Source of the DNA: Pyxidicoccus sp. MSG2
GTDB lineage: Bacteria > Myxococcota > Myxococcia > Myxococcales > Myxococcaceae
Assembly (NCBI RefSeq): GCF_026626705.1
Contig: NZ_JAPNKC010000001.1
Location: 186,001 to 250,000 of the forward strand
Direction of reading: 5' to 3'
DNA length: 64,000 nucleotides
Shown: positions 42,710-44,123 of the stretch, piece after piece
How positions within the stretch are numbered: position 1 is the first letter of the stretch
How the letters are laid out: each line of letters begins with the position of its first letter
Translations under genes and position numbers: made by a program
The notes under the pieces: generated by a model
What the model was told of the DNA's origin: nothing
Database searches by the model: none
The model's input: only the letters and a program-made list of their open reading frames with translations

Positions 42710-43510
42710 ATGCTGACGGTGACCGTCGACGGAATCCCCCTGCACTACCGCGACGTGGGCCAGGGGCCACCCGTCCTGCTGCTGCACGCGTTTCCGCTCA
42801 GCGGTGATGCCTTCGACAAGCAGGTGAAGGCCCTGTCGGGGCGCTACCGCTTCATCATCCCGGACCACCGGGGCTTCGGGCAGAGCAAGCCGGGCGAGGG
42901 GCCCACGGAGATGTCGCGCATCGCCCGGGACGCGCTGTCGCTGCTGGACTCGCTGAAGCTCGACGCCGTGGTGGTGGGCGGCGTGTCCATGGGCGGCTAC
43001 GCGGCCATGGCGCTCTTGCGCGAGGACGCGGGCCGGGTGCGTGGGCTGGTGCTGGTGGACACGCAGGCCACGCCGGATGACGAGGCAGGCAAGGCGCGGC
43101 GCGAGGCCTCCGCGCAGGAGGTGCTGGCGAAGGGCGTGGACCCGCTCATCCAATCGCTGCTGCCGAAACTGGTCGCCGCGGGGCCGAACTCGCCGGTGGG
43201 GCACGAGGTGGCGGCGCTGATGCGCACGGCGTCTCGCGAGGGGCTCGCCGCCGCACAACGAGGGATGGCGCTACGGCCTGACAGCAAGGACATGCTGGCG
43301 CGCTACGCGGGCCCGGCGCTGGTGGTGGTGGGCGAGCACGACGCCATCACCCCGCCCGAGAAGGCGAAGGCCATGGCGGACCTCATCTCCGGCGCGAAGC
43401 TGGAAGTCATCCCCGGCGCCGCGCACCTGCCCAACCAGGAGCAGCCGGAGCGCTTCAACGCGGTGCTGGACGCGTTCCTGTCCTCCATCCACGGGGGTGT
43501 GCCAGAATAG
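42710..43510 (+). CDS. Alpha/beta hydrolase (enol-lactonase-like)
   Basis: The 266-residue hydrolase has the fold markers LHYRDVGQGPPVLLLHAFPL, the oxyanion region, DHRGFGQSKPG and the nucleophile elbow GGVSMGGYAAM. The acid is in VVGEHDAITPP and the His in GAAHLPNQEQP, so the triad is intact. It looks most like 3-oxoadipate enol-lactonases (PcaD) and related esterases. It lies 4 bp upstream of a carboxymuconolactone-decarboxylase-family gene, an arrangement reminiscent of pcaD-pcaC. Confidence 0.88.
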   Translation: MLTVTVDGIPLHYRDVGQGPPVLLLHAFPLSGDAFDKQVKALSGRYRFIIPDHRGFGQSKPGEGPTEMSRIARDALSLLDSLKLDAVVVGGVSMGGYAAMALLREDAGRVRGLVLVDTQATPDDEAGKARREASAQEVLAKGVDPLIQSLLPKLVAAGPNSPVGHEVAALMRTASREGLAAAQRGMALRPDSKDMLARYAGPALVVVGEHDAITPPEKAKAMADLISGAKLEVIPGAAHLPNQEQPERFNAVLDAFLSSIHGGVPE

Positions 43511-43514
43511 GCGC

Positions 43515-44123
43515 ATGTTCCTGAAGGACGTCGAGACGCATGAGTCGGACGGCCACTACGGCCAGCTCATCCGGAAGATGCGCGAGGCGGGCTCGCCCAT
43601 GCCTCAAATCTGGCACCTGTTCGCCTTCAAGCCGCGGATGACGGAGGCCCTTTCCGTCTTCACCCAGGAGGTGATGCGCGGCCCCTCTCCCCTGTCGCCC
43701 GGCCTTCGAGAGCTCATTGCCGCGTACACCTCGCGCGGCAACGAATGTTTGTTTTGAACGGGCTCTCACGCCGCGGTCGCGGCGGAACTGCTGGGCAGCA
43801 CGGATGTGGTGAAGGCGGTGCTGGAGGACGTGGGCTCGGCGCCCATCTCCGACGCCGAGAAGGCGCTGTTTGCCTTCGTGGACAAGCTCAATCTCCAATC
43901 GGCGCAGGTGCGCCAGGAGGACATCGACGGCTTGAAGGCGGTGGGCTGGACGGACGAGGCCGTCTACGACGCCATCTCGGTGTGCGCGTTGTTCAACTTC
44001 TACAACCGCTGGATTGACGGCACCGGCGTCCAGGCGATGCCCGCGGAGATGTATCACCGCAACGCGCAGCGACTGTCGCAGGGCGGGTACGTCGACTCGC
44101 CACTCACCCCGCCGAAGAAGTAG
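43515..44123 (+). CDS. CMD/AhpD-family selenoprotein with CxxU motif
   Basis: This is a carboxymuconolactone-decarboxylase (AhpD-like) peroxidase-related protein of 202 residues, read through an in-frame TGA at codon 81 (43755-43757). The family motif EC-x2-C-x3-H appears as E77-C78-L-F-[TGA]81-T-G-S-H85, so the TGA sits exactly where the second redox Cys belongs. The frame stays open and family-like after it (VVKAVLEDVGSAPISDAEKA) to the normal C-terminus. A SECIS-like hairpin starts 11 bases after the TGA. Selenocysteine therefore seems likely. Such CxxU AhpD-like selenoproteins are known elsewhere. No sel genes are in the window. A single substitution or sequencing error (TGC to TGA) is the alternative. 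Confidence 0.8.
43769..43784 (+). promoter_or_regulatory. Bacterial SECIS-like hairpin after the UGA
   Basis: CGCCGC (43769-43774) pairs perfectly with GCGGCG (43779-43784) around the loop GGTC. The apical loop begins 17 bases after the UGA and has G in its first two positions. Both agree with the published features of bacterial SECIS elements (loop 16-37 bases from UGA, G near the loop start). It lies inside the coding region, as expected for bacteria. Confidence 0.65.

Follow-up and report, generated by a model that had tools for sequence, protein, structure and literature searches.

The window, a 64,000-nucleotide stretch of Pyxidicoccus sp. MSG2 DNA, carries a gene that almost certainly encodes a selenocysteine (Sec) protein of the AhpD type (CMD fold, TIGR01926), with Sec insertion predicted from the sequence at an in-frame UGA. 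The UGA, the hairpin that follows it, the insertion machinery, and the catalytic residues are conserved together. Sec has been retained at one active site across the Myxococcaceae and into the Acidobacteriota, and the hairpin is under tight synonymous constraint. Because ordinary gene callers split such frames at the UGA, enzymes of this kind would be missed or called pseudogenes. Existing knowledge of Sec insertion itself is unchanged by this gene.

The reading frame and its internal UGA

It was originally predicted that codon 81 is a TGA at the position of the second Cys of the family motif, giving C78-L-F-U81 with H85 intact, and that the frame continues beyond it to the C-terminus. Translation bears out both points: the product, MFLKDVE...NECLFUTGSHAAVAA...PPKK*, reads N-E-C78-L-F-U81-T-G-S-H85 around the codon, and the frame contains a single internal TGA and is otherwise open to its TAG (Table 1). 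The alpha/beta hydrolase gene directly upstream is likely to be on the same transcript. However, it adjoins the Sec gene in Myxococcus/Pyxidicoccus and Corallococcus loci and is absent beside it in other genera; consequently, it is placed outside any conserved system. Across the compared loci of different genera, no conserved gene partner hinting at a substrate or a reductant was found.

Table 1. Positions within the window of the Sec gene, its elements, and the upstream neighbour
Feature	Position	Strand	Remarks
Gene for Sec-containing AhpD/CMD-fold peroxidase-related protein (predicted)	43515..44123	+	203-codon frame, 202 aa; residue 81 is Sec; terminated by TAG at 44121-44123
In-frame UGA, predicted Sec81 codon	43755..43757	+	Codon 81; TGA in all close orthologues (40/40) and in 77/78 of the wider CxxX set, whose one exception has Cys
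Active-site motif C78-x2-U81-x3-H85	43746..43769	+	Spacing equals that of Cys130/Cys133/His137 of M. tuberculosis AhpD (PMC3141380)
Glu66 codon, counterpart of AhpD Glu118	43710..43712	+	12 residues N-terminal of the first Cys; invariant in the protein alignment; role assigned by homology
Bacterial SECIS upper stem-loop (predicted), 6 bp CGCCGC/GCGGCG, loop GGUC	43769..43784	+	Sequence, synonymous constraint, and pairing across relatives
Alpha/beta hydrolase gene, directly upstream	42710..43510	+	Neighbour ORF; 4-nt gap

Close full-length orthologues are present in 40 of the 96 family genomes (59-100% identity), each with exactly one in-frame TGA; in translation, this TGA falls at the identical codon in all 40, and it is found there in nine more distant relatives as well. 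Judged by the Sec gene, Pyxidicoccus caerfyrddinensis is the closest named relative, at 95% identity. Myxococcus xanthus, too, has an orthologue bearing TGA (L074). When named genomes, a set that overlaps the 40 orthologues in some species, were scanned, 80 relatives were recovered; they belong to the Myxococcota, the Acidobacteriota, and a few metagenome-assembled genomes (MAGs) labelled as other phyla. Among the 78 that bear the CxxX motif, the Sec codon is TGA in 77 and TGC in one, L094 (Acidobacteria MAG RI_231), a natural Cys counterpart. The other two, L134 and L141, come from a single MAG (Bryobacteraceae MAG HOG28) and read TxxC, with the first Cys missing and Cys at the Sec position. 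Since selA is still present in the L094 and L134 genomes, their use of Cys is not explained by selA loss. A paralogue, L061, likewise has Cys at this column. Thus, as the original prediction anticipated, homologues carry either Sec or Cys here, and the pairing of an in-frame UGA with Cys among homologues (TGC in L094, Cys in L061), by which bacterial selenoproteins are recognised, is present.

Two side observations arose from these searches. A record named Comamonas sp. KCTC 72670 (L091) contains a Myxococcus-type copy with 76% identity and is probably misnamed. In another genome (G003, C1:1573239-1573487), a C-terminal fragment without the active site is 55% identical to residues 119-200 and is possibly a gene remnant.

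Translation table 11 treats TGA as a stop, and automatic ORF callers give two pieces, 43497-43757 and 43806-44123, which could be taken as an 80-residue protein followed by a separate downstream fragment of a pseudogene or split gene. This reading is highly improbable given that the frame runs on intact past an identical TGA in 40/40 orthologues, that purifying selection (dN/dS < 1) acts on both sides of this codon, that the genome has the Sec machinery, and that truncation would remove most of the fold. The selection on both sides and the single domain predicted for the read-through product uphold the earlier view of one Sec gene rather than two fragments. The TGA might instead be a sequencing error or a recent point mutation of TGC or TGT, a Cys codon being one base away. 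However, TGA occurs in every close orthologue and in dozens of independently assembled genomes from several phyla, and L094, the relative with Cys, has a broken hairpin; an error or recent mutation is scarcely credible.

The insertion machinery sought in the host is present: the 13.3-Mb genome encodes selA, selB (one 721-codon frame), a tRNA-Sec with anticodon UCA, and selD, which together make up the selA, selB, selC, and selD set required for a bacterial selenoprotein. Two additional matches to the tRNA-Sec model (48 and 40 bits), lying near each other at C1:2672290-2673295, probably represent long-arm tRNAs of another kind (e.g., Ser or Leu). The selD gene (C1:2609995-2610924) is itself of the Sec type, with one TGA in ...LSHCAGUAAK... 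(motif HCAGUAAK). A formate-dehydrogenase-like gene (C1:12313096 onward, scoring under the TIGR01591 cut-off) has a TGA at 1921-1923 within ...NQARIUHSSTVPG..., followed by the hairpin TGCCC-GGTCT-GGGCA. Together with the Sec AhpD-like gene, these bring the genome to at least three predicted selenoproteins. Within the family, selA is found in 40/40 genomes having the Sec gene and in 89/96 genomes overall; because selA is nearly universal, absence of the Sec gene tells little about co-occurrence of the two.

The hairpin downstream of the UGA

A perfect 6-bp hairpin with a GGTC loop, 11 nt (stem) and 17 nt (loop) past the TGA, had been proposed, and all of its coordinates proved exact: stem CGCCGC at 43769-43774, loop GGTC at 43775-43778, and stem GCGGCG at 43779-43784. 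A stem-loop located just after the UGA, with a small apical loop containing guanosine, is the pattern described for bacterial SECIS elements (PMC1088965), and the GGUC loop 17 nt past the UGA conforms to it. An Rfam scan of the hairpin region returned just one chance snoRNA match, under threshold. Judged against 200 shuffles, the folding energy does not stand out for so GC-rich a gene (z = -1.5; 15/200 fold as stably). It is therefore not used as proof, and the support beyond chance is comparative.

This comparative support comes from synonymous constraint and from pairing. The five codons that follow His85 (GCC GCG GTC GCG GCG) show zero synonymous variation at fourfold sites among the 40 orthologues; by comparison, the average at 40 other conserved positions with at least four codons is 1.0 bit, with no invariant position among them. 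In the 16-nt element of 126 TGA sequences (81 distinct), 4-6 of the 6 pairs are retained, and nearly always all 6. In L062-L069, a stem C-G has become G-U, the pair being kept, with two amino-acid changes; in L093, a C-G has become U-A through two synonymous changes; and in L105, the stem is rewritten as CACAGC/GCUGUG with pairing kept. Among 30 diverse sequences, three pairs have changed on both sides versus 0.7 expected, the covariation score exceeds that of all 500 shuffles, and the covariation measures beat nearly all shuffles. One shifted version (+3) likewise gives three pairs changed on both sides, but the number of paired cells is much lower. L094, with its TGC, has 2/6 of the pairs broken. 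This natural Cys counterpart with its broken hairpin should be useful for asking why soil bacteria retain Sec.

Taken together with the machinery, these features suggest a model in which SelB and Sec-tRNA(UCA) would bind the GGUC hairpin 17 nt past the UGA and insert Sec at residue 81.

Fold, active site, and probable substrate

The protein belongs to the peroxidase-related family TIGR01926 (111.4 bits versus a cut-off of 81.8, residues 16-168) and to PF02627 CMD (34.4 bits versus a gathering cut-off of 23). AlphaFold, run with Cys in place of Sec, models the read-through product as a single all-helical domain (pLDDT 92.9, pTM 0.90) in which the active-site motif opens helix 79-93. The closest solved structures to this model are 2prr, 3c1l, 6k40, 2oyo, and 2pfx, the first four at a probability of 1.00. 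Among 36 aligned sequences, E66, position 81, and H85 are invariant, and C78 is nearly so. E66, C78, U81, and H85 form the AhpD-type catalytic hairpin, i.e., Glu and Cys-x2-Cys(Sec)-x3-His at AhpD spacing; in M. tuberculosis AhpD, the relay residues are Glu118, Cys130, Cys133, and His137 (PMC3141380). By homology with this enzyme, Sec81, beside His85, would attack and reduce peroxide, Cys78 would resolve Sec81 via a selenenylsulfide, and Glu66 and His85 would serve as a proton relay. The oxidised Sec81/Cys78 pair would then be reduced by some dithiol donor.

Peroxide is somewhat favoured as the main substrate. Of all the steps in this scheme, the least secure is function as a peroxidase and not as some other reductase, since the debrominase Bmp8 (6ohi, 6ohj), which matches the Sec protein in both sequence and fold, has this fold too. 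Given this match and the absence of a conserved redox partner next door, the main job of a real Sec protein could be to reduce another substrate, such as an organohalide or a disulfide, as this CMD-fold debrominase does. However, by score the nearest families are TIGR01926, which is peroxidase-related, and AhpD of D. radiodurans (6k40), and each of the four relay positions examined from AhpD (Glu, Cys, Cys/Sec, His) is retained, which makes a non-peroxide substrate unlikely. It is a little more doubtful still that the Myxococcota/Acidobacteriota clade represents a Sec-dominated soil branch with a chemistry of its own (e.g., reductive dehalogenation or lipid-hydroperoxide reduction), unlike known AhpD function.

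Relationship to known AhpD-like proteins

The AhpD-like protein of D. radiodurans (6k40) and the peroxidase-related structures 2oyo, 2pfx, 2prr, and 3c1l share a common fold with the Sec protein over ~170 residues, at ~25-29% identity. At the second motif position, read in 6k40 alone, the D. radiodurans protein has Cys (CVYC) where Sec stands here. M. tuberculosis AhpD shares the Glu-x11-Cys-x2-Cys/Sec-x3-His helical hairpin, with Glu66/Cys78/Sec81/His85 corresponding by spacing to Glu118/Cys130/Cys133/His137. It differs, however, in its chain topology and is a weak fold match (E 0.3), and the present protein has Sec in place of Cys133 and Phe80 in place of His132.

Among selenoprotein families, the NF041238 AhpD_rel_CFYUT (seleno)protein also has an AhpD-related domain with CxxU and shows weak similarity over residues 65-177. 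However, the score of 48.2 bits is far under the cut-off of 175, and NF041238 is a separate, longer family of 357 positions. Among the papers searched, nothing relevant turned up on myxobacterial selenoproteins, including AhpD-like members. Knowledge of AhpD-like selenoproteins carrying CxxU goes back to the Sargasso Sea selenoproteome, which was drawn from marine metagenomes (PMC1088965); in contrast, the present members come from soil Myxococcota and from Acidobacteriota. A 2026 review names "AhpD-like, TIGR01926, CxxU" as a selenoprotein family (PMC13188914), and the Pyxidicoccus gene agrees with it in the NCBIfam model, in Sec as the second residue of CxxU, and in the hairpin just past the UGA, a match made by model, motif, and hairpin. 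The example protein listed for the family is MCB9421940.1. Since the gene passes TIGR01926 and this family is already described, it joins a known selenoprotein family.
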